From the IMG/VR virus record IMGVR_UViG_3300025030_000176, positions 1-47,038 of that record: DNA of 47,038 nt; one strand, given 5' to 3'. Shown here piece after piece: positions 427 through 37,971 of the stretch (positions are counted from its first letter, which is position 1; the number at the start of each line of letters is the position of its first letter). The position numbers and the translations under genes were made by a program. The stretch comes from a virus. The notes under the pieces are model-generated. The model did no database searches, was not told where the DNA came from, and saw nothing but the letters and a program-made list of their open reading frames with translations.

Positions 427-500
427 CAGACGCGAGGCGCACCTCACCGTGTGGTGCGCCTCACGTCTGGGAGTGAACCCAGAAACGAAAGAGAGGAGAC
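427..500 (+). repeat. Intergenic hairpin repeat, copy B
   Basis: This copy forms the best stem: a 17-base arm at 427-443 pairs with 453-469 with one G-U pair, around a 9-base loop (444-452). The right arm then overlaps a second possible stem, CTGGG...CCCAG, so the two folds compete. A GAGAGGAG ribosome binding site follows. This could be an attenuator, a processing site or a transcript-end stabiliser. Confidence 0.75.
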
Positions 501-504
501 AGAA

Positions 505-783
505 ATGAACAGACAATACTATGCCCTCACCAGCCAGAATCCCCAGCTGCTCGGCTGGCGGATCGTCGGCCTCGGCGTAACTGCCGCCGAGGCCGAGCGC
601 GTAGCCATAGCTACGTTGCCCCCGCTGCGGGCCGATGATCTCTTCGCCCAGACCGACCACCGCAATCTGCGCATCGTTAGCCGTACCGAGGCGCGGCGGC
701 GGTACGGCATCACTGATCACGTAGTCACCAGCTACTACGAGACCGATGCCGATCGGTTTCTCGGCGATCACCAGGAGGCGTAA
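505..783 (+). CDS. Hypothetical protein (92 aa)
   Basis: ATG 505 is chosen because AGAGGAG lies 8-9 bases upstream; the open frame reaches further back only through the hairpin repeat. The N-terminus (YYALTSQNPQLLGW) reads as a small mixed alpha/beta fold, and the middle has an Ala/Glu-rich helix. There are no catalytic motifs I can name. The last 67 bases are duplicated exactly at the window start. Confidence 0.75.
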   Translation: MNRQYYALTSQNPQLLGWRIVGLGVTAAEAERVAIATLPPLRADDLFAQTDHRNLRIVSRTEARRRYGITDHVVTSYYETDADRFLGDHQEA

Positions 784-3816: not shown

Positions 3817-4099
3817 CCCCCTGGGCCAGATCCAGGAATTGACCCAGGCCCTCGCTCAGGAGCAGCGCATGCGCCGGCGCTGCGGCGAGCACTGCGCCGC
3901 ACTGGAGCGTGAGGTGACGCGCTTACGGGTGCTGCTCCATGAACTGCTGGACGACGCGCCGGCGGTGCTGCCGGACGGCGACGGAGCTATCGTGCCCCGC
4001 CGGGATCGCGCGGCCTACGCGGCGGCACTGGACCGAGCGCGTGCCGTGCTGGAGTCGCCTACGCCGCTACCTTCGCCGCCGCGAGCACCTGGTCGATAG
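3806..4099 (+). CDS. Hypothetical coiled-coil protein (97 aa)
   Basis: It starts at GTG 3806 inside the previous gene, indicating coupled translation. Residues about 8-48 form a long charged helix with two Cys (RRRCGEHCAALERE), followed by a Pro-rich tail. It is the last gene of the plus-strand run and overlaps the minus-strand response-regulator gene tail to tail by 41 bases. Confidence 0.7.
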   Translation: MRIDPLGQIQELTQALAQEQRMRRRCGEHCAALEREVTRLRVLLHELLDDAPAVLPDGDGAIVPRRDRAAYAAALDRARAVLESPTPLPSPPRAPGR

Positions 4100-4442
4100 C
4101 GGCGGTGAGTTCAGACACCGAGTACGGCTTGCCGACGAACCCCGCGGCGCCCAGCCGCGCCGCCTGCTGCCGGCCGTCCGCGGCCCCCGAGCAGACGACG
4201 ATCGGCGCCGTGCCGCCCTGCTCGCGGTAGACGCGGGCAAACGCCGGGCCGTCCATTCGGGGCATCTGCAGGTCGAGCAGGATGGCGTCCGGCTCACCGT
4301 GGCGGGCGATCTGGCGCAGCGCGCAGGCGCCGTCGTGCGCCAGCGTCACCCCGTAGCCGTCCAGGACCAGGATCTCTGCCGCCACGTGGCGCAGCACCTC
4401 GTCGTCCTCGACCACCAGGATATGCCTGCTCACGTCGCTCAC
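4059..4442 (-). CDS. Response regulator receiver domain protein (127 aa)
   Basis: A stand-alone CheY-like receiver. The acidic pocket is VVEDDE (Asp13, Asp14), the phospho-acceptor is Asp57 in LLDLQM, the switch Ser is Ser85 and the conserved Lys is Lys105 in GFVGKPYS, so every catalytic position is present. It has no output domain. The start is GTG in a GTGA overlap with the holin stop. It is the last gene of the lysis end of the late operon. Receivers are normally bacterial; here it may be a captured gene that sequesters a host kinase or acts on host signalling. The family is certain, the role is unknown. Confidence 0.9.
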   Translation of the reverse strand: MSDVSRHILVVEDDEVLRHVAAEILVLDGYGVTLAHDGACALRQIARHGEPDAILLDLQMPRMDGPAFARVYREQGGTAPIVVCSGAADGRQQAARLGAAGFVGKPYSVSELTAAIDQVLAAAKVAA

Positions 4443-4669
4443 TTGAGCACCTTTGGGACAGCGCCGGCGTCTTCGAGCGCGTTCTGGGTCCATGAGAGCA
4501 GCGCGATCACCCCCGCCACGGTGGCGGCAATCAGCACGCGCTTGGCGGTATCCGTGTCCGGGAGCGTGCCGGGGGACAGGTTAAGCGCCATCCAGGTCGC
4601 CAGTAGCGTCCCCACGAAGGACTGCACAAAGGTCCGGGTGGCGCGTTTCAGAGCATCGGCTAGGGGCAC
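4439..4669 (-). CDS. Putative holin (76 aa)
   Basis: A small membrane protein with an N-terminal helix typical of phage holins (ALKRATRTFVQSFVGTLLA) and two hydrophobic segments at about 12-30 and 44-60, separated by a short loop. Holins form lesions in the cytoplasmic membrane to release or activate endolysin. It lies three bases from the endolysin gene and overlaps the response-regulator start by four, consistent with a lysis cassette. Confidence 0.8.
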   Translation of the reverse strand: MPLADALKRATRTFVQSFVGTLLATWMALNLSPGTLPDTDTAKRVLIAATVAGVIALLSWTQNALEDAGAVPKVLK

Positions 4670-4671
4670 GG

Positions 4672-5313
4672 TTACACCTCCTGCAGGGCTTTGGTGATCA
4701 ACTGGTCGGTAGTACCGCGCTTCAGGCGGCGGCGGGCTTCGAGGTGCCGCAGCAGGTACTCGAACTCGGCTTTCAGTGCGTTGATACGGGCTTGGTCGAC
4801 CTCGAGCGCGCTGATTCTGTCCAGCAATGCTTGACGTTCTTCGTGGGTCATAGCGTCTTCCTCCTGTTGCGCGGCTAGTTTCGTCAGCACCGGATACGGG
4901 TCGACGTAGCCGCCGTAGCCGTTGCCACGGTCGAACCCCGGCGGCCGGAGTCCCAGGTGCAGGTGCGGCCCGCTGCTGTTGCCGGTGCTACCCGAGAGCG
5001 CCAGGTCTGCGCCCCACGCGACGCGCTCGCCGGACGCCGCCAGTGCCATCCGGCAGTGGCCGAACAGCCAGATGCGCCCCGAGTCGGCGGTCAGCGTGCC
5101 GTAAATGCCGTAGCCGACGAGCCGGCCTTGGGCGTCGATGTCGAGTCCCGTCCACCACACGCCCGGCTCCGGCGCCCGCAGCAGCGTGCCTACGGGCATG
5201 CCCAGGTCCAGCCCGTTGTGGCCCTTGATGTCGTAGATGCGGTAGTCAAAGTAGCGCATCTCGCCGAATAACTGCGTGATGCGGTGGTCACCGTCCCAGG
5301 CCAAGCTCTTCAT
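4672..5313 (-). CDS. M23 family peptidase, endolysin or tail-associated lysin (213 aa)
   Basis: The N-terminal domain is a zinc-dependent M23 metallopeptidase that cuts peptidoglycan cross-links: GHNGLDLG (His32, Asp36), GHC (His86) and HLHLG (His117, His119). The C-terminal about 60 residues are a charged helix (LLDRISALEVDQARINAL), probably for oligomerisation or targeting. ATG 5313 is chosen because GGAAGAG lies upstream and the start overlaps the stop of the preceding small gene. The holin neighbour makes an endolysin role most likely. Confidence 0.88.
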   Translation of the reverse strand: MKSLAWDGDHRITQLFGEMRYFDYRIYDIKGHNGLDLGMPVGTLLRAPEPGVWWTGLDIDAQGRLVGYGIYGTLTADSGRIWLFGHCRMALAASGERVAWGADLALSGSTGNSSGPHLHLGLRPPGFDRGNGYGGYVDPYPVLTKLAAQQEEDAMTHEERQALLDRISALEVDQARINALKAEFEYLLRHLEARRRLKRGTTDQLITKALQEV

Positions 5314-6404: not shown

Positions 6405-7445
6405 CTAATTCAGCCGGGCTTCGAGGGCGGCGATGCGCTCATAGAGCGCCTGGATAGCCGTTGCCGCGTGTCCAAACGCACTCACGGGGCTAAAAATGCC
6501 GCCGTCGTGGTGCATCAACCAGGGGGCTTCATCTGCCATCGCACCAGCGTAGATCGTCTCGTAGTCGCCCGTCCCGCGTGGACGGGAGCCATCGTCCATT
6601 ACGGACTTGTAGGTAAATTCGTAGATGGGTACTGACAGAATGCGCCGTAGCGCTTCACCAGAGTCAAGGCGTCCACGCACATGTTTGTACTCTCGCTGTG
6701 ACGCGGCGGCCTCCCAGGTACAGGTTCCACTCCCGTTGGTTTGGAGCTGCTCGCCAGCATCACCATCGTCTGGCGGCAGTGTCCACGTCCAGGTGCCGGC
6801 GGCGGCGGCGCCCGTCACTGTAATCAGGCCAGAAGTGGCTCCAGCCAGGCCAAGAGTACCTTGCGTCGTCCCAGCCAGGCCGACATGTAGCAATGTAGAT
6901 GGTGCCGTCGTCCCGATGCCGACGTTGCCGTTATTAGTAATTACCATATGTACATCAGTAGCGTCGGCAGTTACGACGTCACCGGAAGATCTATTCATGA
7001 AATATAAAGAACCGCGATTCCATCCAGAACCGTCATCTAGGTAAGCGATTGCCCCCTTACCTACACGATTAGCATCACTTCCTGTTTCAAATACGATACT
7101 CGGGCCAGCTCCAGCGAAGGCAGTGCCTCCTGCTTGTAGTCTTAGAAGATGTTGTAGGGTTTGGCTAGTTGAACCTACGATATCAACTAGCCGCTGTGGC
7201 CCCGCCGTCCCGATGCCGACGTTGCCGCTCACCGTCAACGCCGCCAGCGTCCCCACACTCGTGAGGCTGCTGGCCGTGACGCCTGAGGCGAGGGTAGTGC
7301 CGGAGAGGTCGTTGGCGTTGACCTTCTTGCCCTCGGTGCCGTCGTGATCATGGCCGCTCGTAGCGTCGAGTACGTCAAGGCGCAGATTGTTGTATTGGCC
7401 GGCGAGGATATCGTCAAGCGCTGCGACGGTGCTGCTGTTGGCCAT
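6405..7445 (-). CDS. Tail fibre/spike with C-terminal S74-like chaperone domain (346 aa)
   Basis: The N-terminal part is typical of fibre attachment regions. The middle carries repeated NVGIGT-type beta turns (GNVGIGTAGP, GNVGIGTTAPSTLLHV), common in fibres matured by the peptidase S74 intramolecular chaperone. The last about 100 residues (SQREYKHVRGRL ... IYEFTYK ... YAGAMADEAP ... ALYERIAALEARL) follow that chaperone's plan, ending in a trimerising coil. It probably forms the host-contacting fibre. It is the most distal tail gene, next to lysis. An 11-bp triple repeat precedes the start. Confidence 0.82.
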   Translation of the reverse strand: MANSSTVAALDDILAGQYNNLRLDVLDATSGHDHDGTEGKKVNANDLSGTTLASGVTASSLTSVGTLAALTVSGNVGIGTAGPQRLVDIVGSTSQTLQHLLRLQAGGTAFAGAGPSIVFETGSDANRVGKGAIAYLDDGSGWNRGSLYFMNRSSGDVVTADATDVHMVITNNGNVGIGTTAPSTLLHVGLAGTTQGTLGLAGATSGLITVTGAAAAGTWTWTLPPDDGDAGEQLQTNGSGTCTWEAAASQREYKHVRGRLDSGEALRRILSVPIYEFTYKSVMDDGSRPRGTGDYETIYAGAMADEAPWLMHHDGGIFSPVSAFGHAATAIQALYERIAALEARLN

Positions 7446-10557: not shown

Positions 10558-13500
10558 TTACACCGAGTTGAGGCTGAAGCTGCCGTAGGTGCGCAGCGTG
10601 CGCGTGAACTGCTGCGCAACTTCCTGCGCCAGTTCACGGATGGCGCCGGGTTGAGCGTAGACGCCGCCGGACAGGTGGATATGCACCGTGACGCCGCCTT
10701 GCCCGCCATTTGGCCCGCCGCCGAAGCCGAACTCGCGAGCACGAGACAGGGGAAACACGCCTTCGGGTTCACGGCCTTCGCCGATGAGTGCGCGCGTCGG
10801 GCGGGTGACGATGCCGCCGGCGGCGAAGTCGATCGACTTGAGATTGTGGACGACGAGGCCGGCCGCCAGGTAGTTGTGCTGATCGAAGTCGTCGCCGGCT
10901 TCCACGTGCAGGTTGAACACGTCGTACATGCCCGGCAGGGCGACGATGCTCACGACCGGCGCATCGTTCCACCGTTCGCCGTCCCAGGAGCGCAGTACGG
11001 TGCCGGGGCCGCACTTCCCCGCGGGCCGCCACGCGCCAGTGACGTACAGTAGGTGCTCAGGGGTCACGTCGATGAACGTGCCGCCACGCACCTTGAGGCG
11101 CAGCAGCCGGTGGCCCTCGCTCGCGGCGTGGCGGCACGTCTCGGTGACGGTGCGCGCCACCAGTCCCTCGGTGGCAGGGTCGTAGGAGAGCACCACGTCA
11201 CCCGCGGCGATAGATTCGATGGGCCGCTCGCCGTCCGGGGTGCTGATCAACGTGCCGGCGCGGAAGCAGCCGCCCTGATCCGGCGGCCCCGGTGGTGGCC
11301 CTGGTGGGCCAATGGGGGCCGGCGGTCCTGGTGGGCCGATGGGCGCTGGTGGGCCGCCACCATCACCGCCACCGGGTGGTGGCCCTGGTGGGCCAATGGG
11401 GGCCGGCGGTCCTGGTGGGCCGATGGGCGCTGGTGGGCCGCCACCATCACCGCCACCATCACCGCCACCATCACCGCCACCATCACCGGGTGGCGGTGAT
11501 GGTGGCGGTGATGGTGGCGGTGATGCCGGTTGACCAATCGGTGAGGGCACAATACCCCGGAGCAAGTTCTGCAACCATGTGGGCAGCGTGTTAAACAGGG
11601 CATTCATCGCATCCACGATGCCCTGCATGAGGGCCGTACCGATGCCCGCTACCGACTCCTGGAGCGCCTGCCAATTCTCGCTGATCCAGGTAGCGATGGT
11701 GTCGGGAAGCTCACTCAGCCGCTCCCAAACTTTGCCGGCCAAGTCCAGCGACGCCCAGAAGCCGCCGGCGATGGCTGTGCCGACGTTGCCAATGGCCGTA
11801 CCAACGGCCTCAATGGAAGTCGCCGACCATGTCGCAATAGCGTCATAGATTTCGCCCAGTCGGTTCCTCACATCGGCGGCGAGGTCCAAGGCGCGGTACC
11901 AGACATTCCTGATCCAAGCCGCAATAGCGTCAAACTGTGTTTCTACCGTTCCCTTCGTTGTCTCCCAGGCCTCGTCAACCGCCGCGGTCAAGCTGCCCCA
12001 CAGCTCGCCGGCGTTGTGCTGCAGCAGGAGCCAGTTCCAGCGCAGACCGGCGATGTTCTCGTCGGTCCGTTGCTGGATCATGCGCCAGGCCTCATCCAGT
12101 GCGTTACCCACCTGCGTTCGTACCGTCGCGATGATGTCGGGCGCAGCAATGGCAAAGATGATGGCGAGGGGGATACTCAACGGCCCGCCGAAGGCGAGGA
12201 TCAGGGCGGCGCCAAGGCCGGCAGCGACGTCATCGGCAACGCCACCCCAATTGCGCGCCCGTACGTCACGCTGTATCTCGGCGGCGACGATGGCGGCAAC
12301 GCCGAGTCCGGCGAAACTTGTCGCCGTCAGGCCGCCGATGGCCCGCACCAAGACAAAGACCAGCGCAGCCCCTATCGCCTCAACGGGATTCGTTCGAATC
12401 CAATCGATGATGCCCTGAATCAGCGTATGGGCGAACCTCTGCGCCCCCGGCACGATCCCATCGCGAAAGACGGCCCAGGCGTCATCCAGCAGATCGAGGA
12501 GCACCATGGCGAGCTCTTCGGCGAGCTTCCCTTGATTGTCCTTGAGCGTTTGCCAGAGGCCGCCCCAGTCGATCTGCTTGAAACGCTGCCATAGACTGCC
12601 AAACAGGTCGATCACCGGCTTGAGAAACCGGCCGATCCACTGCAGTGCGGCCCCGATGCCGTTGAGCGCGACGGCCGCGACCCGCAAGCCCAGAGTCAAC
12701 GCATCGAAGCCGAGACGGCCCAGGGCGCGGAAGAGCGGCGCGGCAGCGCGTCCTGCCGCCAGCAGTGCATCAACAAAGCGTTGCCAGAGGGGTCCGGCGA
12801 CGAGCGCTTTGGCGGCCGCCTGGGCCTGGGTCAAGCCGCTGATCAGGAAGCTGATCAGCGGCTTGACCACGGGATCGAGCCCCGTACCGAAGATGGTGAG
12901 CAGCCGCCGCCCAGCCGCAATGAGATTGCTGACCAGGCCCGTCGTCGTCTGGGCGGCCCGTTCCATGCCGCCGCCGAAGCGCTCGCGGATGCCCTCGCGG
13001 ATGGCGGCGATCGCGCGCTCACTCTCAATGCCCGCCGCGCCCAGGTTCTGCATGGCCTTTTGCGAAAGACCGAGCTTCTCGGCCAGGATCGCGAACGCGG
13101 GGATACCCGCCTCGGTCAGCTGATTGATCTCCTCCATCGACGCGCGGCCCTTGGCCTGCATCTGTCCCAGGGCCAGTGCCGCCCGTCCGAAGCGCTCCTC
13201 GTCGGCCCCGACGGCATCGCCCAGATCGGTCATGATCGGGATAATGTCACGCGCTTGAAAGCCAAAATTCAGCAGCTTCTCGGCGCCGCGGAAGGTCGCC
13301 GGATCGGAGAAGGGCGTGTGATCGGCAAACTCCTGAAGCTCCTCGAAGAGCGCATTGCCCTGAGCCACGTCCCGGAGCAGTGTCTCGAACCGCGCCCGAA
13401 ACACCTCGGTGTCTGCGGCGTTCCCAAGCATGCCCCGGCCCAACCCGACCACGGCAGCAGTCGCGCCGGCGATGAGTCCAATCGTGCCCATGCCGAACGT

Positions 13501-13770
13501 CACCATCATGGCGCCGCCGAGCGTGGAGAGCGCCCTGCCACCGACCTGGGACGACATCATGAGCGCCATGCCGAACTGGTGGATGGCATTGGCGCCACCA
13601 TGCGCCGCCCGGGCATGCCGGTGCATGGCTCGCTCGGATTGGACAAGCGCCTGTCCTTGCCGTTGCAAGGCGCCGGACGTATCCCGTGTTGCCCGCGCCA
13701 TCTGCTGCTGGCCGCGGATAGCGCCGGCGCTATCGAGCTGGAGGCGAATGGTGGAGACGCGAACCGCCAC
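10558..13770 (-). CDS. Tape measure protein with embedded Hint domain (1070 aa)
   Basis: The largest gene. It sets tail length by spanning the tube. GTG 13770 is chosen because GGGGAG precedes it and the open frame upstream overlaps a plus-strand gene. It has an N-terminal helix, hydrophobic segments near 60-100, long Ala/Trp-rich helices, then a Pro/Gly repeat region, a Hint/BIL domain (10843-11268) and a C-terminal tail domain. The frameshifted tail assembly chaperone lies just upstream. The Hint ends in His-Asn followed by Leu, so canonical splicing is not expected but Asn-driven cleavage is possible. Confidence 0.88.
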   Translation of the reverse strand: MAVRVSTIRLQLDSAGAIRGQQQMARATRDTSGALQRQGQALVQSERAMHRHARAAHGGANAIHQFGMALMMSSQVGGRALSTLGGAMMVTFGMGTIGLIAGATAAVVGLGRGMLGNAADTEVFRARFETLLRDVAQGNALFEELQEFADHTPFSDPATFRGAEKLLNFGFQARDIIPIMTDLGDAVGADEERFGRAALALGQMQAKGRASMEEINQLTEAGIPAFAILAEKLGLSQKAMQNLGAAGIESERAIAAIREGIRERFGGGMERAAQTTTGLVSNLIAAGRRLLTIFGTGLDPVVKPLISFLISGLTQAQAAAKALVAGPLWQRFVDALLAAGRAAAPLFRALGRLGFDALTLGLRVAAVALNGIGAALQWIGRFLKPVIDLFGSLWQRFKQIDWGGLWQTLKDNQGKLAEELAMVLLDLLDDAWAVFRDGIVPGAQRFAHTLIQGIIDWIRTNPVEAIGAALVFVLVRAIGGLTATSFAGLGVAAIVAAEIQRDVRARNWGGVADDVAAGLGAALILAFGGPLSIPLAIIFAIAAPDIIATVRTQVGNALDEAWRMIQQRTDENIAGLRWNWLLLQHNAGELWGSLTAAVDEAWETTKGTVETQFDAIAAWIRNVWYRALDLAADVRNRLGEIYDAIATWSATSIEAVGTAIGNVGTAIAGGFWASLDLAGKVWERLSELPDTIATWISENWQALQESVAGIGTALMQGIVDAMNALFNTLPTWLQNLLRGIVPSPIGQPASPPPSPPPSPPPGDGGGDGGGDGGGDGGGPPAPIGPPGPPAPIGPPGPPPGGGDGGGPPAPIGPPGPPAPIGPPGPPPGPPDQGGCFRAGTLISTPDGERPIESIAAGDVVLSYDPATEGLVARTVTETCRHAASEGHRLLRLKVRGGTFIDVTPEHLLYVTGAWRPAGKCGPGTVLRSWDGERWNDAPVVSIVALPGMYDVFNLHVEAGDDFDQHNYLAAGLVVHNLKSIDFAAGGIVTRPTRALIGEGREPEGVFPLSRAREFGFGGGPNGGQGGVTVHIHLSGGVYAQPGAIRELAQEVAQQFTRTLRTYGSFSLNSV
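10843..11268 (-). other. Hint / bacterial-intein-like (BIL) domain in the tape measure protein
   Basis: It encodes 142 residues, from Cys in CFRAGTLISTPDGERPI to Asn in AAGLVVHN. It has the N-terminal block, an internal VTPEHLLYV (block B-like His) and the C-terminal YLAAGLVVHN block. No endonuclease insert. The residue after Asn is Leu instead of Cys, Ser or Thr, which points to a BIL-type domain or a decayed intein. Confidence 0.85.
11280..11533 (-). repeat. Collagen-like Pro/Gly coding repeats
   Basis: Two near-identical blocks of about 110 bp encode APIGPPGPPAPIGPPGPP units, joined by runs of GGTGGC/GGTGAT encoding GDGGG and flanked by SPPPSPPP. They form a flexible linker directly before the Hint domain. 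Such repeats are prone to slippage, so length may vary between isolates. Confidence 0.85.
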
Positions 13771-13809
13771 TGCTATTGCGCTCCCCGTATGATTGGACTG
13801 GGGACAATC

Positions 13810-14094
13810 ATGCTCTACCTCGTCGCGCTCATCGTGCCGCCACTGGCCGTGCTCTTGGCGGGCCACCCCTGGCAAGCCCTGCTCAACCTGGCCATCTTCC
13901 TCGTCACGGTGCCGATCTTGGCAGCCGGCCCGGTGGCACTGGCCGGCAGCACGCTGGCCGTCATCCATGCCCTCGTCGCCGTCCACGGCGAGTATGCTGA
14001 CTGTCGCATGGCGCGCTGGCACGACCAGCAGCGAGGCGCACCGAGCCGGCCGAGCCGGCCACCCGCCAGGCGGTCGACTAGTCGAGTGCCATGA
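13810..14094 (+). CDS. Pmp3/YqaE (UPF0057)-like membrane protein (94 aa)
   Basis: A lone plus-strand gene between the tail chaperone and tape measure genes. ATG 13810 has ACTGGGGAC upstream. The protein begins MLYLVALIVPPLAVLLAGHP, matching the YqaE/Pmp3 pattern of two hydrophobic segments with a PP turn and an IHAL motif near residue 52. The second segment is about ten residues longer than usual and a basic tail follows. Pmp3-family proteins affect membrane potential in known organisms. Here it may protect or alter the infected membrane. It slightly overlaps the facing chaperone gene. Confidence 0.65.
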   Translation: MLYLVALIVPPLAVLLAGHPWQALLNLAIFLVTVPILAAGPVALAGSTLAVIHALVAVHGEYADCRMARWHDQQRGAPSRPSRPPARRSTSRVP

Positions 14095-21180: not shown

Positions 21181-21497
21181 GGCTGACACAATCCGTAGGT
21201 CCCGGCCATCTGCTGCCGCCACTCCAGCGGAAGTGGTACCCAGTCTCGCGCTGCCCGGACGATCTCTTGCCGCCACTCGGGCACGGCCACCCGGGTAGCG
21301 AGGGCACTGGCCGCCGGATGGAGCGCGGCGACGGCGGCCACGGAACGGATGCCGCCATCAAAAAGCTGAATGGCCAGGTCCGCGCGCACGAGACCGCGGC
21401 CAACGTGCGGCCGCGTCTGTTGCCACCAGACGAACAATTCCAGGCTATCGACGGTATCCGCGGCAGAGAGTTCGTAGGGATCGCAAGGCAAGCTCAT
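21177..21497 (-). CDS. Hypothetical helical protein whose start abuts the IS element (106 aa)
   Basis: ATG 21497-21495 is the last codon before the IS element; its native leader has been replaced by the element's left end. The protein is helical and Trp-rich (LELFVWWQQTRP, WRQEIVRAARDWVPLPLEWRQQ), which suggests a small adaptor. Originally its start overlapped the stop of the gene now at 23180-23650 (see the IS entry). Confidence 0.7.
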   Translation of the reverse strand: MSLPCDPYELSAADTVDSLELFVWWQQTRPHVGRGLVRADLAIQLFDGGIRSVAAVAALHPAASALATRVAVPEWRQEIVRAARDWVPLPLEWRQQMAGTYGLCQP

Positions 21498-21558
21498 CTA
21501 AATCGCGGGCGGAAACCCCGTGTCTTCAGACCGGGGAGGAAGCCCGCCTCCTTTCCTG
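21498..21558 (+). repeat. IS left end, shared by three elements
   Basis: The first about 61 bases are identical in the copies at 33502 and 46933. They contain the nested hairpin probably recognised by TnpA and lie 3' of a TCAT in all three. Confidence 0.9.
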
Positions 21559-21565
21559 GCAATAG

Positions 21566-21985
21566 ATGGCCCATGTGCTGTATACTTTCTTCGTGGAGTA
21601 CGAGACGACGGCACACGCGGTCCATTTGCTGGTCTACCACCTGATCTGGTGCCCGAAGTACCGTCGCCCGGTGCTGGATGGCCCGATCGCCGCTCGTCTG
21701 CGGGAGCTGGTCTCGACGGTAGCCGATGAGCACGGCTGGACTGTCGTGGAGGCAGCCATCCAACCTGACCACGTGCATCTGTTTCTGCGTTGCCGGTCCA
21801 CGGATGCACCGCACCTGGTGGTACGTGCGCTCAAGGGTCGTACCAGTCATGCGCTCCGGCAGGAGTTCCCTGCGCTCAAGCGGCGCTTGCCGACACTCTG
21901 GACGAGGAGCTACTTCTGCGCGAGTGCCGGGAATGTGAGCGCTGCCACGATCCAGCGCTACATCGAGGCCCAGAAGGGTGTCTGA
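21566..21985 (+). CDS. tnpA: IS200/IS605 family Y1 transposase TnpA (139 aa)
   Basis: A complete HUH single-strand transposase. The HUH metal motif is His69-Val-His71 in QPDHVHLFL and the nucleophile is Tyr132 in IQRYIEAQ. The length is usual for the family. It cuts and rejoins single-stranded ends, probably during replication, at TCAT targets. TnpB starts four bases after its stop. Confidence 0.93.
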   Translation: MAHVLYTFFVEYETTAHAVHLLVYHLIWCPKYRRPVLDGPIAARLRELVSTVADEHGWTVVEAAIQPDHVHLFLRCRSTDAPHLVVRALKGRTSHALRQEFPALKRRLPTLWTRSYFCASAGNVSAATIQRYIEAQKGV

Positions 21986-21988
21986 GTA

Positions 21989-23197
21989 GTGATGCCCGTC
22001 TTGACGGCGACCATCAAGCTCAAGCTCCACCCCACGCTGGAAGAGGCGGCGGCCTTTACGGCCACCCGTGAGGCCTTTACGGCCTGTTTCAACCATGTTT
22101 GCGCCTACGGCTGGCAAGAGGGTGAGTGCAACGGGACCGCCCTGCACCGGGCCACCTATGTGCCACTGCGGGCCGAGTACCCGACGCTGCCGAGTCAGTT
22201 GGTGTGTGCGGCGCGCGTCAAGGCCACCGAAGCGCTCAAGGCGGTGCATGCCCGCCAGCAGCAGGGGCGCAACATGACCTGCCCGCAGTCCGATGGCATC
22301 GCCATCCGCTACGACGCCCGCAGCAGCTGGGTCCGACTTGGGCCGGGTGAAGCCAGCGTGACCACCGTGGTGGGTCGTATCCGGTTGCCATTCCGTTTGT
22401 GCGACCACTATCAGCGGTACCAAGACTGGCAGGTCCGCAGCAGTGACCTGTGCCAGGATCGGCGCGGTCGGTGGTTCCTGCATGTTGTGGTGCAGCAGAC
22501 CATCGAGGCGCCTCTCCCAAACGGCGAGGTGATTGGCATCGATCTGGGCATCCGGCGTATCGCCGTCACGAGCGACGGCCGGAACGCCACCTTCTACAGC
22601 AGTGGACACCTGACCGACCGGGTACGCCGCTACCAACGGCTGCGCCGGTCTCTCCAGGCCAAAGGCACCAGGAGCGCGAAACGCCATCTGCGGCAGCTTG
22701 GACGTGACTGGCAACGGTTTACGGCCTCGGTCAACCACGTGATCGCGCGGCGCATCGTGGACGCCGCTTCTCCAGGCACTGTGTTCGGTATCGAGGATTT
22801 GAACGGCATCCGTGATCGCTGCAAGCACCGCAAAGGCGAACAGCGGGGACGGTTCCACCGCTGGAGCTTTGCCCAGTTGCAAGGCTTCCTGCGGTACAAA
22901 GCAGCGGCGGCGGGGCAGCACGTCGTCACGGTTGACCCGCGCTACACGTCCCAGACGTGTCTGCGCTGCGGCCACGTGGCCCGCGGGAACCGGCGGACGC
23001 AATCGTTGTTTGTCTGCCAGGTCTGCCATTTCAGTCTCAATGCCGATCTCAGTGCCGCGCGGACTCTTCGCCGGCGAGCCATCGACTCGTTGGTGGCGCC
23101 GTTGTCAGGCGGCGTATCGTGTCAGGACGATGGTTCGGTGTTCGCATCGAATGGTCGTCTTAGGCGCAAGCTCCCGGCTTCAGCCGGGGGTTCCTGA
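21989..23197 (+). CDS. tnpB: TnpB, RNA-guided nuclease of the IS element (402 aa)
   Basis: All three RuvC residues are present: Asp185 in GIDLGIRR, Glu269 in FGIEDLNG and Asp353 in NADLSAA. A zinc finger with CxxC pairs 324/327 and 343/346 sits between the second and third. The usual N-terminal beta-barrel and helical lobe precede. TnpB proteins use an RNA made from the element's right end to cut DNA next to the transposition target sequence, which favours element retention. GTG 21989 or ATG 21992 is the start. The last bases of the gene form the right end. Confidence 0.93.
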   Translation: MMPVLTATIKLKLHPTLEEAAAFTATREAFTACFNHVCAYGWQEGECNGTALHRATYVPLRAEYPTLPSQLVCAARVKATEALKAVHARQQQGRNMTCPQSDGIAIRYDARSSWVRLGPGEASVTTVVGRIRLPFRLCDHYQRYQDWQVRSSDLCQDRRGRWFLHVVVQQTIEAPLPNGEVIGIDLGIRRIAVTSDGRNATFYSSGHLTDRVRRYQRLRRSLQAKGTRSAKRHLRQLGRDWQRFTASVNHVIARRIVDAASPGTVFGIEDLNGIRDRCKHRKGEQRGRFHRWSFAQLQGFLRYKAAAAGQHVVTVDPRYTSQTCLRCGHVARGNRRTQSLFVCQVCHFSLNADLSAARTLRRRAIDSLVAPLSGGVSCQDDGSVFASNGRLRRKLPASAGGS

Positions 23198-31156: not shown

Positions 31157-32659
31157 CTAGGCGGCACCATTGACTGTGTGACGAAGCCGCGCGGCCTCAT
31201 CGCGACGGGCTTTCCATTCGAGGAAGTTCTCCCCGTCCTCGACGGGGGGCAGATCGTAGACCACGCGCTGCGCCGGCTGGCTCGGGGCCACTGGCCCGCC
31301 ACCCTGTACGAGGATGGGGGCAGTCGCCGTGTGCGCCGCGAGCAGTGCCGACTGCGCCGCCAGGAAGGCCGGCCAGTGCGTCTCGTCGGCCACCGCTGTA
31401 AGGAGCTGGCCGAGCACCTGGCCTCGATAGGCGTAGGGAATGCGCGCCGCTTCGACGGCGTGCGCCGCCCGCGCGCCGCGCTCATAAAGCGCCACCTGGG
31501 CCTGCACGGCGTCGAGCGCCTGCGCCTGCGTCACGGCTGCTTCCTGTGCCGCCGTCACTGCCGCTTGCGCGTCGGCGAGCGCCGTCTGCACTTCAGCGAG
31601 TTGGGTCGCGGCCTCGGCCAACTGCTCGTCACGCCTTACGGTCTGCACCTCGCGCCGCAGACGCGCGACGAACTCCGGTCGAGCCTCGCGCCACTCGTCA
31701 AAGTCCAGGGCGGCCAACAGCCGCTGCATCAATTCGTCCCCATTGCTGGCGGCGAGCGCCTCGAAACGGCCGCCGGCCGCCGGCCGGGTCACGATGTCTA
31801 CGCTATCGAAATCGATGAGCTCGGCGACGATCGGGCCCTCGCGCCCTTCGGCCTCACCTTTCTCGGTGCGGCCGATGCCGTTGATCGATAGGCCCATGAG
31901 CGGCTGGCCACTGGCGATGCTCTCTTCCGCCCAGGCCATGACATGCTCTTTGCGATCAGCAGCGCCCACCAGCTTGAGCTGGCCCTTGAGCGAACCGTCG
32001 TCCGCCGCAGAGACGTTGCGGTAGACACCCACCTGATCCATGATCGAGCGCTCGGGCCGGTCGCCCTTGAGCGGATGGTCGGCAAAGGCGCGGAGCCCCT
32101 CGAGCTTGGGCAAGGCCGCCGCCAGGGCTTCCCGCGGGTAGTAGCGGCCATTGAGCGACCAGCCGGGCCGGATCAGGGTCACGTCGAGCACGCCCTCAGC
32201 GCGGTTAGCAGCCTCGACCGTCACCTGCTCCAGCAGCACGCTGGTCTTCCGCCGAGGCATCGCTGCCGGTTCCCCGGCTTGCCCGGCGATGGCTTCTTTC
32301 TTGCTCGCGTCACCGCTGCCATCGCCGGCGAGCATGGCCTTCATATCGGTCAGGCTCATCTTGTGTTTCTTCGCCATGGCCGCCATGGCGTCATCATGGG
32401 AGAGGCCCTTGGCCATCATGGCGGCCATCTCAGCGCGCATACTGGCCGCGGATGGCGGCTTACCGCCCATCTCGCCCTGGCCATGCTCAGCCTCGTCGCT
32501 CGGTTCCAGCTCCGCTTGGCTTGCGCCCTCACCCTGGTGCTTGAAGAACTGAATCTCGCGTTCTCGCGCCTGCGCCGCCGCCTCGCTGTCGAAGCTGCCC
32601 AGCTGCTTCTTGCCATCGTGGCTGTAGAGGACGTACTTTCCGTCTTCTTTGCGGATCAT
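31157..32659 (-). CDS. Putative head maturation protease with scaffold domain (500 aa)
   Basis: ATG 32659 opens MIRKEDGKYVLYSHDGKKQL. The middle (GWSLNGRYYPREALAAALPK ... FADHPLKGDRPERS ... LMGLSINGIG) is typical of phage prohead proteases. The C-terminal half is a long Ala/Gln/Glu coiled coil, like a scaffold, then a Pro-rich end. Protease and scaffold fused in one chain is a known head-assembly plan; the protease would cut the scaffold away during maturation. The frame is open upstream through 9-bp repeats (PEPPEPPEP), but these are better read as leader. Confidence 0.75.
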   Translation of the reverse strand: MIRKEDGKYVLYSHDGKKQLGSFDSEAAAQAREREIQFFKHQGEGASQAELEPSDEAEHGQGEMGGKPPSAASMRAEMAAMMAKGLSHDDAMAAMAKKHKMSLTDMKAMLAGDGSGDASKKEAIAGQAGEPAAMPRRKTSVLLEQVTVEAANRAEGVLDVTLIRPGWSLNGRYYPREALAAALPKLEGLRAFADHPLKGDRPERSIMDQVGVYRNVSAADDGSLKGQLKLVGAADRKEHVMAWAEESIASGQPLMGLSINGIGRTEKGEAEGREGPIVAELIDFDSVDIVTRPAAGGRFEALAASNGDELMQRLLAALDFDEWREARPEFVARLRREVQTVRRDEQLAEAATQLAEVQTALADAQAAVTAAQEAAVTQAQALDAVQAQVALYERGARAAHAVEAARIPYAYRGQVLGQLLTAVADETHWPAFLAAQSALLAAHTATAPILVQGGGPVAPSQPAQRVVYDLPPVEDGENFLEWKARRDEAARLRHTVNGAA

Positions 32660-32710: not shown

Positions 32711-32731
32711 TCGGGAAAGTCGGGAAACACA

Positions 32732-32779
32732 AAAAAGCGCCGTCCTCGGCGACCAGGGGTCGCGCAAGAAGACGGCGCT
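32732..32779 (-). terminator. Rho-independent terminator
   Basis: On the minus strand AGCGCCGTC (32779-32771) pairs with GACGGCGCT (32744-32736), enclosing a second stem GCGACC/GGTCGC, and is followed by six T (complement of the A run 32731-32736). It ends the small RNA and separates it from the head operon. Confidence 0.9.
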
Positions 32780-32830
32780 CTATGGCGCTCAGCTATTCGG
32801 TTGAGGTGGACTGGGCTACTTCCTTACTTC

Positions 32831-32866
32831 GCTTCAATGGGGCCACGGCTTTTCAGCCGTGGAAAC
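32831..32866 (-). CRISPR. Solitary 36-nt CRISPR-like repeat
   Basis: Minus-strand reading: starts GTTTCCACGG, has an eight-pair stem (CCACGGCT/AGCCGTGG around GAAA) and ends in ATTGAAGC, the form of the 8-nt 5' handle left on crRNAs of many type I and type III systems. Length 36 is typical. No second copy is present nearby, so this is not an array. Confidence 0.72.
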
Positions 32867-32893
32867 ACCAGAAGAGCAAAGCACCTGGAAACT

Positions 32894-32923
32894 ATCCTAC
32901 AGCAGACTCGCGCGTGCTGTCAA
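32894..32923 (-). promoter_or_regulatory. Sigma70-like promoter of the small RNA gene
   Basis: TTGACA at 32923-32918 (a perfect -35 box) and TAGGAT at 32899-32894 (4 of 6 of the -10 box), separated by 18 bases. It points at the CRISPR-like repeat. Confidence 0.75.
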
Positions 32924-32956: not shown

Positions 32957-33433
32957 TCAGGTCAAGCCGGCACGCTCCAAAATGGCCTCAATACGGTTAA
33001 TGCGGGTGTGGTCATACATCTGCACGGAAAACAAGAAGGCAAGCACTTTGGCCTGCGCGTCATGGGCGGTCAGCTCATCCGGGTCAAGCAGTGCCAGATC
33101 AGTACCTGTGGCGATCATCAGCCCTTTGCCAATGCGGCGCTGCGCCATTCTCTGCTGCGCCTTCGTCAGACGAACATGCTCACGAGGGTGGACGACACGA
33201 TAGCCGACCCCCTCTTCGACCTCCAACCAGCGATGCCGTAGATCACCCATCTCGCGACAGGCGCGATACAGCGGAGAACGTGACCGTTTGAATGGCCGCC
33301 CCAACGTCTCGTCAAGCTGGCTATAGGTAATCACGTCGCCTATAGCCACATTCGTCAGCAGGTCGTCGTAGATCCGTCGCCATTCCGGGACATTGACGAC
33401 GGTCGGTAGCGGAGTGTGTTCGATGATGTCCAT
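32957..33433 (-). CDS. Hypothetical DNA-binding-like protein (158 aa)
   Basis: A compact alpha/beta protein beginning MDIIEHTPLPTVVNVPEWRR. The segment VAIGDVITYSQLDETLGRPF followed by SPLYRACREMGDLRHRWLEV reads like a winged-helix fold. REHVRLTKAQQRMAQRRIG is basic and helical. I have the impression it is a recurrent family in phages of this kind, without a known role. It sits next to the small RNA gene and could regulate it. Confidence 0.68.
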   Translation of the reverse strand: MDIIEHTPLPTVVNVPEWRRIYDDLLTNVAIGDVITYSQLDETLGRPFKRSRSPLYRACREMGDLRHRWLEVEEGVGYRVVHPREHVRLTKAQQRMAQRRIGKGLMIATGTDLALLDPDELTAHDAQAKVLAFLFSVQMYDHTRINRIEAILERAGLT

Positions 33434-33501
33434 CCTCTCAATCCTCTTGTTGCTCTCCAGTGGTCGACGCCCCGCGGCGAAAGCCGCGAGATGTGGTCAT
33501 C

Positions 33502-33841
33502 TAAATCGCGGGCGGAAACCCCGTGTCTTCAGACCGGGGAGGAAGCCCGCCTCCTTTCCTGGAATTGGTACAATCTCCATGAGCGCAAAGGCACTGCGGC
33601 GTGTCACCGCAGCAACGGTTTCGCGCCTTAACAATTCAGGTTGCAGGTTCCGCCGCGCAGCCATACGGCGGGTAAAACGTGAAGTGCCAGGGCTTCGGCC
33701 CTGTGACACGCAGCATGGGCTACACGCCTGTGCTGCGGGGCGTGTTGTCGAGCGCCCCAACGTCTCGGAATTGCGGAGTGCTGTTCGCATCGCTCGTTGC
33801 TTTCAGGGACAAGCTTCCGGCTTCAGCCGGAAGTACTTGAC
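33502..33841 (+). mobile_element. 340-bp non-autonomous IS200/IS605-like element
   Basis: The first about 61 bases equal the left end of the full IS, again directly after TCAT (33498-33501). The right end (CCGGCTTCAGCCGG, ending TTGAC) is related but diverged. There is no tnpA or tnpB; the interior is different and strongly structured. It is probably moved by the TnpA of the full copy. Borders are set by alignment with the full element. Confidence 0.85.
33680..33841 (+). ncRNA. Candidate omegaRNA-like structured RNA of the small element
   Basis: Stems include CAGGGC-TTCG-GCCCTG (33688-33703), CGCAGCA/TGCTGCG (33709-33737) closed by GACA/TGTC, and an alternative GGGGCG/CGCCCC. The right-end hairpin follows. 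A stretch before it (TGTTCGCATCG...) aligns with the end of tnpB in the full copy, so this may be an omegaRNA gene kept without its nuclease. The guide would start AAGATATTCC in the flank. Confidence 0.5.
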
Positions 33842-34117
33842 AAGATATTCCCTGCCTTGCCCGGCCCTGCCTTGCCCTGCCTTGCCCGGCCCCGCCTGGC
33901 CCAGCCCAGCCCTGCCGTGCCCTGCCCCGCCCCGCCTGGCCCCGCCTGGCCCCGCCTGGCCACGCCTGGCCCTGCCGTGGACTTCGTGGCCCGTAGAGAG
34001 GCGACCAGCCATCCCTACAGAAGGGAGCCTCGCCCTGCCCTGCCGTGCCACGCCACGCCACGCCCCGCCGTGCCCAGCCTGGCCCTGCCATGCCCAGCCC
34101 GGCCCTGCCCAGCCGTG
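33842..34117. repeat. Degenerate 5-bp tandem repeat array (NNGCC), left of gene 34118
   Basis: About 130 bp (33851-33979) and 85 bp (34030-34114) are runs of NNGCC in which the GCC is nearly fixed and the two other bases vary. A non-repeat island of about 50 bp (33980-34029) separates them. The minus strand is (GGCNN)n and includes four G triplets with 2-base loops (34093-34110), a G-quadruplex motif just after the next gene's stop. No convincing gene here. Confidence 0.85.
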
Positions 34118-34720
34118 TTACTCGGCGGTCTGGTGCTTGTGGTCGTCGGCGGCAATCTCAGCGGTAAACCGGCCGTAGCCCAGCTTGCGTGCGTCGCCGA
34201 GCCCTTCCATCCGTCCAGCGCTCTGCACAATACGAGTCAGCATATCGAGATTCATCACATCCTCTAGAAGCTCTGCCTCAACCGTCAGGCGCCACTGACG
34301 GAAGCAAGGCCGCACGCGAATGACCTTGCCGCGCTGGATGCCGACGAGCCGCCGATCGTGGTAGAGCGGTTTCGCCCAGAGCTCGACTGGCTTGCGCGGG
34401 CCATCATACTGGAGCGCTACTCGATCGGTGGTGACCGCAAACGCGCGCACGACATTGGTTCCCTGGCGCACCACCTTGGCAGCGTTCTCGAAGCAGCGCA
34501 CCAGGTTTGCCGTGGGAATGTACGGCCCTAGCGCGGGATCGTGATAGAGCCCGCCCATAAATTCCAGCCGCTCGATCTCCACATCGTCGGCCTCCGTCCG
34601 GTTCGTTTTCTTCGCGGTAATCTCCGCAATGGCCTTGGTCAGCTCATCCGCTTTGTCCGCGAGGCGGACGTTGTGCATCAAGAGCGTCGTCGTCCCGGTG
34701 AGTTCAATCAGCACACGCAT
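34118..34720 (-). CDS. Hypothetical protein with RAMP/Cas7-like features (200 aa)
   Basis: ATG 34720 opens MRVLIELTGTTTLLMHNVRL. The middle has a Lys/Asp/Glu-rich helical insert and PYIPTANLVRCFENAAKVV; the C-terminal block is SAGRMEGLGDARKLGYGRF, a glycine-rich loop. A ferredoxin-like start, an IPTANL helix and a G-rich loop late in the chain remind me of RAMP (Cas7-type) folds, and I recall relatives in other phages. The assignment is tentative. NNGCC repeat arrays lie on both sides of it. Confidence 0.55.
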   Translation of the reverse strand: MRVLIELTGTTTLLMHNVRLADKADELTKAIAEITAKKTNRTEADDVEIERLEFMGGLYHDPALGPYIPTANLVRCFENAAKVVRQGTNVVRAFAVTTDRVALQYDGPRKPVELWAKPLYHDRRLVGIQRGKVIRVRPCFRQWRLTVEAELLEDVMNLDMLTRIVQSAGRMEGLGDARKLGYGRFTAEIAADDHKHQTAE

Positions 34721-34740
34721 GGTGTGTCGTCTTTCCTTTC

Positions 34741-34828
34741 GTGCCTTGCCGTGTCGTGTGTCCTTGCCTTGCCGTGCCTGGCCCCGCCTTGCCGTGCCTG
34801 GCCGCGCCTCGCCCGGCCTCGCCGCGCC
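34741..34828. repeat. Degenerate 5-bp tandem repeat array (NNGCC), right of gene 34118
   Basis: The same NNGCC period as the 33842-34117 array, starting about 20 bases upstream of the gene's ATG and so forming its leader. On the mRNA it reads GGCNN, with AAGG-like stretches near the start. The remaining bases up to 34976 contain no gene I can support. Confidence 0.85.
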
Positions 34829-34976
34829 ATGGCATCTTGGGTTGTGCACCAAGCTACGTTCTTCTACTACTACAACGTACACGTTTCGCGCACGTCTCGT
34901 TACGCAGTAAAATCGTGACACGCAGAGAAGGTGACAGCGCGCAGGCGCTCTAGAGGCGAGAGGCAAGAGGCCGTCG

Positions 34977-35390: not shown

Positions 35391-35759
35391 TTAATCCTCT
35401 TCCTCTTCCGCTTCCACTGGTGGACCGGCAGCGAACCGCTGGATCGACAGCGCAAGGGCATGACACGCCTCGGGAAGCGTGCGGCCGCCGGCATTGATGC
35501 ACTCGCGCCGGTCCCACCACCACGAGTCGTAATCGTCTGGCATATCCGGACCCGCGGCGGCGCCATCACTGACATGCCTGATCAGACGGAACTCGCAGCG
35601 ATCGCGGTAGTACGTGCCGGTGCCCCGATCCTTCAGGCGCAGCTCCCACCCAGCCGCCTCGGCATCGGCACACAACGCAGTGAGATCACCTGCGCGCGCC
35701 GCGGCCGAGAGCTCAGGCAGCCGGTTGCGCGGTGGTTCCGTCCTCTTGAGTCTTGCCAT
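35391..35759 (-). CDS. Hypothetical protein (122 aa)
   Basis: ATG 35759 opens MARLKRTEPPRNRLPELSAA, inside the end of the MuF gene (47-base overlap). AARAGDLTALCADAEAAGWE and a WWWDRRECINAGGRTLPEA block follow, with an acidic tail. No family recognised. It is coupled to MuF expression by position. Confidence 0.66.
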   Translation of the reverse strand: MARLKRTEPPRNRLPELSAAARAGDLTALCADAEAAGWELRLKDRGTGTYYRDRCEFRLIRHVSDGAAAGPDMPDDYDSWWWDRRECINAGGRTLPEACHALALSIQRFAAGPPVEAEEEED

Positions 35760-37971
35760 CTTTTTCACCTGTCTTCGTCGTCGTCTTTCCCGTTCGCTCC
35801 AGCCTCTTGCCGCGCTGCTGACGCAAGCCGCCGTCCTCGTCGTCAGGGATACCATGTTCCGCCGCCCATTGCTTGTAGGTCTTGCGCGGCTTTGGCTCGA
35901 ATTGTTCGAGGCCAGTGAGGCCCAGCTCGGCAAACGATTTGGACACTGGCAGCCAGGCGCAACGACAATTGTGTACCACTATTCCGTTGCAGATGTATAA
36001 TGAGTACATACCATCCTGGAGGTCGTAAACATGTCCGTGACACGCTATCCGCCTGATGGCAACGATTGGATCGAGTGTTATCGCGCTGGCGCATCGTTGG
36101 CGAAACTGGCGAAGCAATACCGAGCCGCTGCTGAAACCGTGCGATGGTGGCTGATCGAGGCGGGCGAGCCCATCCGTGATCGAGTTGAGTCGTCGCGCAG
36201 TGCCATGCGCACTTTGCGCCGCCGGTTGCCCCTCGAAGACAGCCTGGTGCGGCTGTACCACCAAGGCGTGTCGATCAAGCGCCTGGGCGAACTGAACGGG
36301 ATCGATCGCAGCGCGATCACCCGGCGACTGCGTGATGCTGGCGTTCCCATCCGCGGACGCAGCGAGAGCATGTACATCCGCATGGCCCAGACTACTGCCA
36401 AGGATCGGCAATGGTTGACCGCCGCCGCCAATGCGGTCCAGCGTGGCGTGCCAAAGACCTGGGATGATCTCTGTACGAAGGCCATTGGCCGGCAACAGAG
36501 GCTCTCCCATGTCGCACCCGCTGAGCAAATGCTGGCGAAGTGGCTTCGCCAGCGCGGCGCGCCAATCACGCCCCAACTCGCCATCGGCCCGTACAACGTG
36601 GATATTGGCATCCATGAACCGCCCATCGCCGTGGAAATCTTCGGCGGCGGCTTTCATGGAAGCGGCAAGCACGCCATCCGCATGCATAAGCGCACCAAAT
36701 ACCTCCTCAATCAGGGATGGACGCTCATCATCGTGTGGGTAGACGGTCGCGCCGATCCGCTCACCGAGGCCGTAGCTGACTACGTGGTCGCCCTCGCACA
36801 ACAACCCAGCAGCGACCCATCCATTCGGAGTCGCTACCGGGTGATTGGGGGTAACGCGCAACCGGCGACCGTGCGCAGTACACACTTCAATGACGACGCC
36901 TTCATAGAGGCTCTTGGTCGCCGCGACTAGGCTGGGCACCGCTACCCACTGCCCGGGCAGCACACAGCGAGCATGCAATGGGATCGTCGGCGCCGCCGGA
37001 TCATCGATCGCCCAGCTCTTGCCGTCCAGGGCGCGACACCGAGATTCGGTGATACGGTCGTTCGTCGCCTGCCATTCTTTCTCGGCGACGACATCGGCAT
37101 TCGCCGCCATCACGGCCTCGGCGCCGGTCGCACTGGCCCGGATCAACTCTGTCCTGACCAGCAGCTCCGCGTGTTTCCGTGGGGTCATCCCACGGCGTAC
37201 GGGCTTGACGTTCAGTGCATCGGCCGCCGCCTGCCGCCGGGCAGCGACCGGCCCCTCGCCGACCGTGACGCCGAGCAGCCGCAGCAGCCGTGAGGTCGCC
37301 TGCGAGACGCTCTCCCCTTCGAGCTGCGAAAGGGCAATCGTGCGCCGCAGCGACAGCAGCAGCGCGGGCCGTTGCTCGGCGTACCGCTCGAGGTAGGTCA
37401 TACCCTGGTACGGGTGCAGCACGGCCGCCATGACGGCTTGATGCGGCAGGACGGGTGCCGTGACGCCGAGCTGAAGGGGCAGTTGCTGATCGAGCGTCCA
37501 GGAAGTGCCGTAGTAGCTCTGGCGGTAGGCCTCCATCGTCGCTCGCAGGGTCTCGTCGCCGGCTGCCTGCACCATCCGCTGCATGGCGACATCCACCTGC
37601 TGCATGAGGGCCTGGAGACGTGCTGCCTGCTGCTGCGCCGAGAGGGGTACACGGCCGGCGGCGAGCGCCTGCGTCCAGGTGTGCTCACCACCATAGTCCT
37701 CGATAATCCGCCGCCACTGCTCAGCCAGCTCACGCCCGCCCTCGGCATAGTACGCGCTCACTCGCCGTAGCGTCTCGGCGACCTGCCCGTTAATCCGTTG
37801 GCGTACCCAATCGACATTCTGACGCGCCTGGCGGCGGGCGGCATCGGTATCGGTGTCTTGCTGAGCCGACTGGCGGGATTTGCGCGCCTTCGCCTCAGTC
37901 TGATGCACCGCTACGAGGCGACTGGTCCAGTGCCAGCGTGGATAGTCGTCATAGTTGTCATGGAAGGTCAC
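35713..37971 (-). CDS. MuF/SPP1 gp7-like head protein carrying an intein (752 aa)
   Basis: The N-extein (1-335) is a helical phage Mu F/SPP1 gp7-type head morphogenesis protein next to the portal gene. The intein spans residues 336-668. The C-extein starts with Cys669, and splicing would join LHAR to CRCAWLPV, rebuilding the conserved HxxCRC end motif of the family. So the intein sits in the most conserved spot, as inteins do. A C-terminal basic tail follows. Translation starts at ATG 37971 in an ATGA overlap with the upstream gene. Splicing is required for a normal product. Confidence 0.9.
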   Translation of the reverse strand: MTFHDNYDDYPRWHWTSRLVAVHQTEAKARKSRQSAQQDTDTDAARRQARQNVDWVRQRINGQVAETLRRVSAYYAEGGRELAEQWRRIIEDYGGEHTWTQALAAGRVPLSAQQQAARLQALMQQVDVAMQRMVQAAGDETLRATMEAYRQSYYGTSWTLDQQLPLQLGVTAPVLPHQAVMAAVLHPYQGMTYLERYAEQRPALLLSLRRTIALSQLEGESVSQATSRLLRLLGVTVGEGPVAARRQAAADALNVKPVRRGMTPRKHAELLVRTELIRASATGAEAVMAANADVVAEKEWQATNDRITESRCRALDGKSWAIDDPAAPTIPLHARCVLPGQWVAVPSLVAATKSLYEGVVIEVCTAHGRRLRVTPNHPVATPNGWVAAGLLCEGDHVVSYGLGERIGATVYPHDDERPSLIEEVFGALMHADGVLAASMKAAAEDFHGDGRFMDANIHVVRADGELGRDWRAALAKPLRQHLLSGCDMGEPLLPANGLRTEIIPGLWHATLDRIGGGGQPLPILGSSLGHADVHALAASADGNASITQSPGDRAAIDPVQFAQALDRHALVVQPHQAVFEGQPAAQSAHGTARRLNSITDGLARLDQPPSHGFSSGSVLLRQFRQRCASAITLDPIVAIRRIACHGHVYDLQDGMYSLYICNGIVVHNCRCAWLPVSKSFAELGLTGLEQFEPKPRKTYKQWAAEHGIPDDEDGGLRQQRGKRLERTGKTTTKTGEKDGKTQEDGTTAQPAA
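35996..36023 (+). promoter_or_regulatory. -10 box and ribosome binding site of the antisense nuclease
   Basis: TATAAT at 35996-36001 (perfect -10; the -35 is weak) and GGAGGT at 36018-36023, seven bases before ATG 36031. On the other strand the same bases encode the conserved intein end YSLYICNGI, so both strands are under constraint. Confidence 0.72.
36031..36930 (+). CDS. VSR/EDxHD-type homing endonuclease, antisense within the intein (299 aa)
   Basis: Two helix-turn-helix units come first (ASLAKLAKQYRAAAETVRWW at 21-40 and VSIKRLGELNGIDRSAITRR at 80-99, each followed by AGxPIR), then a VSR/DUF559-like nuclease core: Glu165 in APAEQMLAKWL, Asp191 in YNVDIGI, Glu202 in AVEIFGGGFHG, and His/Arg-rich HAIRMHKRTKYLLNQGWTL, ending in a helix. 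EDxHD nucleases are known partners of some inteins. It would cut intein-free MuF alleles and drive homing. It has its own promoter-like box and strong RBS. The unusual point is its antisense position inside the intein. Confidence 0.85.
   Translation: MSVTRYPPDGNDWIECYRAGASLAKLAKQYRAAAETVRWWLIEAGEPIRDRVESSRSAMRTLRRRLPLEDSLVRLYHQGVSIKRLGELNGIDRSAITRRLRDAGVPIRGRSESMYIRMAQTTAKDRQWLTAAANAVQRGVPKTWDDLCTKAIGRQQRLSHVAPAEQMLAKWLRQRGAPITPQLAIGPYNVDIGIHEPPIAVEIFGGGFHGSGKHAIRMHKRTKYLLNQGWTLIIVWVDGRADPLTEAVADYVVALAQQPSSDPSIRSRYRVIGGNAQPATVRSTHFNDDAFIEALGRRD

Follow-up and report, generated by a model that had tools for sequence, protein, structure and literature searches.

Locus and signals within the phage head operon

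The locus described here lies on the minus strand at positions 32731-32923 of the IMG/VR record IMGVR_UViG_3300025030_000176, a stretch of 47,038 bases referred to below as the window. Terminase, portal, minor head and capsid proteins are encoded on the same strand. The locus occupies the gap between an upstream gene of 158 amino acids (32957-33433, minus strand, phrog_5926) and a downstream gene of 500 amino acids with a head-maturation-protease-like product (31157-32659, minus strand; phrog_15531, 1.8e-10). From the upstream stop (32957) to the downstream ATG (32659) there is no credible ORF, in agreement with an earlier note on this DNA, which held that nothing else is encoded there. The idea that the 158-amino-acid product is a regulator found no backing: neither Pfam nor PADLOC gave a match, there was no viral relative, and the structure model was unusable (pLDDT 36). 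PADLOC matched 0/10 of the nearby ORFs, and no cas gene lies beside the unit.

Read along the minus strand, the locus consists of TTGACA, 18 nt, TAGGAT, 27 nt, the 36-mer GTTTCCACGGCTGAAAAGCCGTGGCCCCATTGAAGC, 51 nt and a terminator hairpin with T6. The sigma-70-type promoter spans 32894-32923, with the -35 TTGACA at 32923-32918 and the -10 TAGGAT ending at 32894; the promoter consensus thus ends 27 nt before the repeat, well inside the 250 bp used as a criterion for solitary repeat units. A start site predicted from the -10 falls at about 32887, giving a 21-nt leader (32867-32887, minus strand), and the RNA would be about 157 nt long, close to the 155 nt or so proposed previously. The intrinsic terminator (32731-32779, minus strand) has an 11-bp outer stem. 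Both signals had been called in the earlier note and both are present. In a scan of both strands of the whole 47 kb, no other exact TTGACA was paired with an acceptable -10 (4/6 or better), and no other stem of at least 8 bp ran into T5 or more. A generic consensus scan of 3 kb is much weaker evidence, and gives little weight to promoter or terminator taken alone (promoters 1 vs 0.5 expected; terminators 2 vs 1.7 expected). The RNA folds with a z-score of -4.7, better than 200/200 shuffles. An Rfam search of the window returned 0 matches, no tRNA or tmRNA was detected, and phage and plasmid records gave chance-level pieces only. What is shown is a single canonical type I-G CRISPR repeat that sits between genes in the head operon of a tailed phage, with promoter-like and terminator-like signals on either side.

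Several other features of the window were recorded. A TnpB gene (21989-23197, plus strand) lies within 21493-23197, behind an end-like sequence of about 66 bp, further copies of which lie at 33497 and where the contig ends (46928-47038); this locus and the recurring ends are an IS200/IS605-type element and stray ends. Hint/intein domain matches were found in the tape measure protein (10558-14022, minus strand) and in the Mu F-like minor head protein (35713-37971, minus strand). Positions 83-1340 contain 58-bp repeats (TCACCGTGTGGTGCGCC...) in both orientations at a spacing of about 360-480 bp, the first 117 bp recur at 717-833, and at 33829-34851 5-bp GCCNN units are repeated in long stretches with a 10-bp register.

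Among 301 Chloroflexota-phylum genomes, 9 had a match to the window TerL (top score 250 bits, with 38% over nearly full length and 52-55% over half), as did 39 of 294 genomes from the phylum of L004, a Planctomycetales record (top score 172 bits, 34%). With these two phyla compared, TerL appears to lean towards Chloroflexota, where the matches are fewer but better. Of the 12 window proteins compared, TerL alone had a match in nine viral sequences (L039-L041 and L109-L114).

A type I-G CRISPR repeat and its relatives

The 36-mer (32831-32866, minus strand) starts with GTTTCC and ends with ATTGAAGC, exactly as reported earlier, though no strand had been stated. Its layout is 4+8+4+8+4+8 nt: GTTT, an 8-bp stem with a GAAA loop, CCCC and the 8-nt handle ATTGAAGC. 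Covariance model R1, built from 12 repeats of prokaryote genomes with the window excluded and with L004 and L028 represented by single repeats near stretch ends, recognised the 36-mer with 65.4 bits and E = 2.1e-16, E-values of this tool being rough. The next-best place in the window scored 10.4 bits. A match of this strength to a model that excluded the 36-mer is far beyond chance, and the proposal that the sequence is CRISPR-like is borne out. The covariance-model search found one copy and no partial repeats nearby, and the locus is therefore not an array. The repeat search of sister phages with the model left out L109-L114.

Over 19 aligned repeats, a set that takes in the window repeat and six viral ones, 98.7% of 152 stem cells were paired, changes on both sides occurred in 6/8 pairs, and the covariation score was 0.733 vs 0.173 in shuffles. 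In the I-G repeat for which the Csb2 cut has been mapped, cleavage falls 4 nt 3' of the stem and leaves an 8-nt handle (PMC9638904). The window repeat matches this geometry, with an 8-bp stem (7 bp in the published repeat), 4 nt and an 8-nt handle, and on the basis of that mapped site a Csb2 cut is predicted between C28 and A29 of the repeat (32838-32839, minus strand).

A gapped pattern search of genome_contigs matched 36 stretches. An ungapped I-G-type hairpin repeat was present in 11 of these (L004, L013, L016, L019, L023, L025, L027, L028, L030, L033 and L036), one (L029) was a longer look-alike, and the remaining 24 look like chance. Seven of the 11 (L013, L019, L023, L025, L027, L030 and L036) contained arrays with a repeat spacing of mostly 71-78 nt. 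Proteins adjoining L013, L019, L025 and L030 were Cas8g/Csx17, Cas7g/Csb1, Cas5-6g/Csb2, a Cas4-Cas1 fusion and Cas2, all of type I-G; the genes tested differed between loci, so that not every gene was tested at each. Because the neighbours of the matching arrays are I-G cas genes, the 36-mer is assigned to the type I-G repeats and an identity as a type III repeat was ruled out. In L019, a Methanothrix record, one near-perfect and three degenerate I-G repeats were also seen outside the main array (4350-4936), between it and the Cas4-Cas1 gene.

Repeats within 3 mismatches were found in 3/400 genomes of the phylum of L028 (Chloroflexota), in 2/110 genomes of the class of G400 (one of them additional) and in 1/29 genomes of the class of G178 (already counted), giving four Chloroflexota-phylum genomes with close repeats (G400, G435, G178 and G358). 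The closest array found was that of G400, a genome with a full Cas3g-Csx17-Csb1-Csb2-Cas4/1 operon. Allowing up to 3 mismatches, 68 copies were counted in G400; almost all share a single sequence, and the two changes that set it apart from the window repeat affect a base in the loop and one member of the base pair closing that loop. Csb1, Csb2 and Cas4-Cas1 are present beside the G178 array, and G358 is assigned to I-G by Cas3g alone. Csb2 was present in 11/201 Chloroflexota-phylum genomes. The earlier note had pointed to type III and type I arrays of Chloroflexota; the phylum and type I were supported, and type III was not. It had also named the lack of any matching host repeat family as the outcome that would tell against its reading, and the 36-mer was found to belong to the type I-G family.

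I-G arrays with the same consensus as the window repeat occur in Chloroflexota-phylum genomes as well as in records of Thermoplasmata, Micrarchaeota and Methanothrix, and cellular I-G repeats (Thioalkalivibrio sulfidiphilus effector, PMC9638904) likewise have 36 nt, a hairpin, 4 nt and an 8-nt handle. The exact 36-mer was found in none of the cellular genomes covered by the genome_contigs pattern, the Chloroflexota phylum search and the two class searches. Unlike cellular I-G arrays, the window repeat is solitary and phage-borne, with its own promoter and terminator.

Searches of IMG/VR for other viral I-G units gave 0 with a pattern containing TGAAAA and 11 matches with TGNAA, 0/11 of which had the right hairpin. 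A further pattern gave three stretches (L106, L107 and L108), 3/3 with the right hairpin, and another gave 22 stretches in which the same three alone had 8/8 pairs. L106 (IMGVR_UViG_2791354756_000002, 64 kb) is an unrelated virus with DNA polymerase, helicases and an anaerobic ribonucleotide reductase. Within 3860-4520, a cluster of about 500 bp contains five or more I-G-like repeats, four of them found by the model and a fifth, degenerate one recognised by eye; their stems differ but are paired. They are arranged as three or four units in tandem, with arms of the GTGCAGGGTG / CACCCTGCAC type on either side that would close each RNA, and a generic scan placed a promoter-like site before one unit alone. 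The cluster is a possible multi-copy RNA anti-CRISPR locus. L107 (IMGVR_UViG_3300037465_000103) has two identical I-G repeats 75 nt apart (6983-7093), a mini-array among phage tail genes, and L108 (IMGVR_UViG_3300037465_000121), which has its metagenome number in common with L107, has a single I-G repeat (485-520, minus strand) and encodes major head and tape-measure-like proteins. A weaker I-G-like hairpin (24 bits) was also seen in L128 (6084-6119, minus strand), adjoining a putative tRNA end; the stem of this hairpin recurs in inverted orientation further downstream.

The 51-nt tail and alternative explanations

The 51-nt tail (32780-32830, minus strand) had been called spacer-like. The term describes length only, and no match was found among 226 spacers of I-G arrays. 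There was likewise no match elsewhere in the five viral sequences tested, and the exact 20-mer formed by its first 20 nt was absent from viral_contigs. The longest match elsewhere in the window was 10 nt, which is at chance level. Conversely, when the 226 spacers were compared with the window, the top matches were 15 nt vs 17 nt in a reversed control, and no targeting was seen. The end of the tail may pair with the leader, but this pairing is weak: 87/2000 shuffles and 44/126 Chloroflexota array flanks formed a closing helix as good or better, and the helix was ruled out as evidence. As the pairing is no better than these controls, the closed design of the L106 units is not claimed for the window.

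One alternative is that the locus is a virus-borne mini-CRISPR, in which the tail is a true spacer used by host I-G machinery against a competing virus or plasmid. A canonical handle does precede the tail, viral mini-arrays exist (PMC6858448), and L107 carries two I-G repeats 75 nt apart. A mini-array is, however, recognised by at least two repeats around a spacer, and the covariance-model search of the window found no second one, so that the tail also lacks a Csb2 hairpin at its 3' end. The tail is longer than array spacers, which measure about 35-40 nt, and, in the five viral sequences and for its exact first 20 nt in viral_contigs, matches no virus. We regard this explanation as very unlikely. 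The window unit resembles the viral mini-CRISPR arrays of SPV1/2 (PMC6858448, PMC11656645) in that a virus carries a host-like repeat, and differs from those described there by the missing second repeat and spacer match. A guide of the CreA kind, whose tail would partly match a host or phage promoter (of a toxin or cas operon) and allow I-G Cascade to repress it, is also quite improbable. One or two ectopic repeats making CRISPR-like RNAs are the hallmark of such guides (PMC9458426), and the window unit shares with CreA/CreTA RNA guards an ectopic repeat RNA outside an array; yet the CreA repeats described there are degenerate, whereas the window repeat equals the consensus and is phage-borne, the tail finds nothing beyond its chance-level match in the window, and no toxin or target was found.

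Without any RNA function, the locus might also be the remnant of a host array or serve for docking and recombination with CRISPR arrays, an integration that has been suggested for solitary units (PMC10651486); the perfect consensus of the repeat could reflect a recent capture. A dedicated promoter and terminator would be surprising in a relic, the leader is unlike the array leaders compared, and the tail matches none of the 226 spacers; this reading appears highly improbable. Finally, the stem-loops might regulate the late operon as an attenuator or insulator, with an incidental likeness to CRISPR. The sole strong terminator of the window does lie inside the head operon, but with E = 2.1e-16 an incidental likeness to a 36-nt I-G repeat is very unlikely, and we give this explanation hardly any credence, although a double role is possible.

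A candidate RNA anti-CRISPR of type I-G

We consider it likely that the phage carries here an independent gene whose product, a small non-coding RNA, imitates a type I-G repeat, which makes it a candidate RNA anti-CRISPR (Racr). Speaking for this are the identity and solitary state of the repeat, the I-G cas neighbours of the matching arrays, the agreement with the Csb2 site, the flanking promoter and terminator, the precedent of RacrIF1, the occurrence of Csb2 in Chloroflexota-phylum genomes and the leaning of TerL to that phylum. Most likely, the RNA would act as a decoy that ties up host CRISPR proteins, as decoys known from other CRISPR types do. Transcribed from its own promoter during infection, it would be bound at the hairpin by host Csb2, a Cas5-Cas6 fusion, and cut after CCCC. 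Csb2 keeps hold of the 3' hairpin in type I-G (PMC9638904), and would here stay on an upstream piece of about 49 nt made up of the 21-nt leader, GTTT, the hairpin and CCCC. About 25 nt of single strand before the hairpin would leave room for a few Cas7 subunits. The downstream piece (ATTGAAGC handle, 51 nt and terminator hairpin) would resemble an over-long crRNA that has no Csb2 hairpin, and may draw off Cas7 as a second decoy. Either way, Csb2 and Cas7 would be diverted from real guides and the I-G effector starved. Capture of Csb2 is the most likely action because the hairpin and cut site are intact in the window RNA. A fuller version, in which Csb2 cleavage produces two decoys held together by the leader-tail helix, one the hairpin with its bound Csb2 and the other a pseudo-crRNA that bears the handle and ends in the terminator hairpin, seems unlikely.

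The closest precedent is RacrIF1 of a Thiocystis violascens prophage, a phage-borne repeat with a promoter of its own whose RNA binds Cas6f and Cas7f (PMC10651486). Its RNA is cut by Cas6f and carries Cas6f and a long Cas7f filament; the inhibitor is a 70-76-nt upstream product, and the handle alone is not inhibitory (PMC10651486). Like RacrIF1 as described there, the window unit has one repeat in a phage intergenic region with its own promoter, no array, and an intact hairpin and processing site. It differs in being I-G rather than I-F, in having about 21 nt upstream of the repeat, and in the 51-nt tail and strong terminator that follow it. The short upstream piece, about 49 nt vs 70-76 nt in RacrIF1, counts against the Racr reading. 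So do the absence of the repeat from L038, the sole relative covering the junction, the lack of targeting of the window by any of the 226 spacers, the lack of an exact genomic 36-mer, and the position of the unit in a head operon rather than beside a known defence-related gene.

Solitary repeat units form a recognised class, with 2,103 viral units of all types but VI (PMC10651486). The terms 'I-G' and 'I-U' are absent from the main text of that paper, the supplement of which may already contain this record, and no I-G RNA inhibitor was among the papers listed in literature searches on type I-G with anti-CRISPR or Racr. The assignment of the window unit to this class as a type I-G member is convincing on sequence grounds, its function being a candidate one.

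Among the type I subtypes, I-G has been called the least well understood (PMC9638904). If the reading is correct, a natural RNA inhibitor of I-G would provide a switch for I-G tools and a probe of how Csb2 and Cas7 pick guides, and the clean borders of the unit make it easy to clone and test. Such an inhibitor would also link this phage to hosts with I-G immunity.
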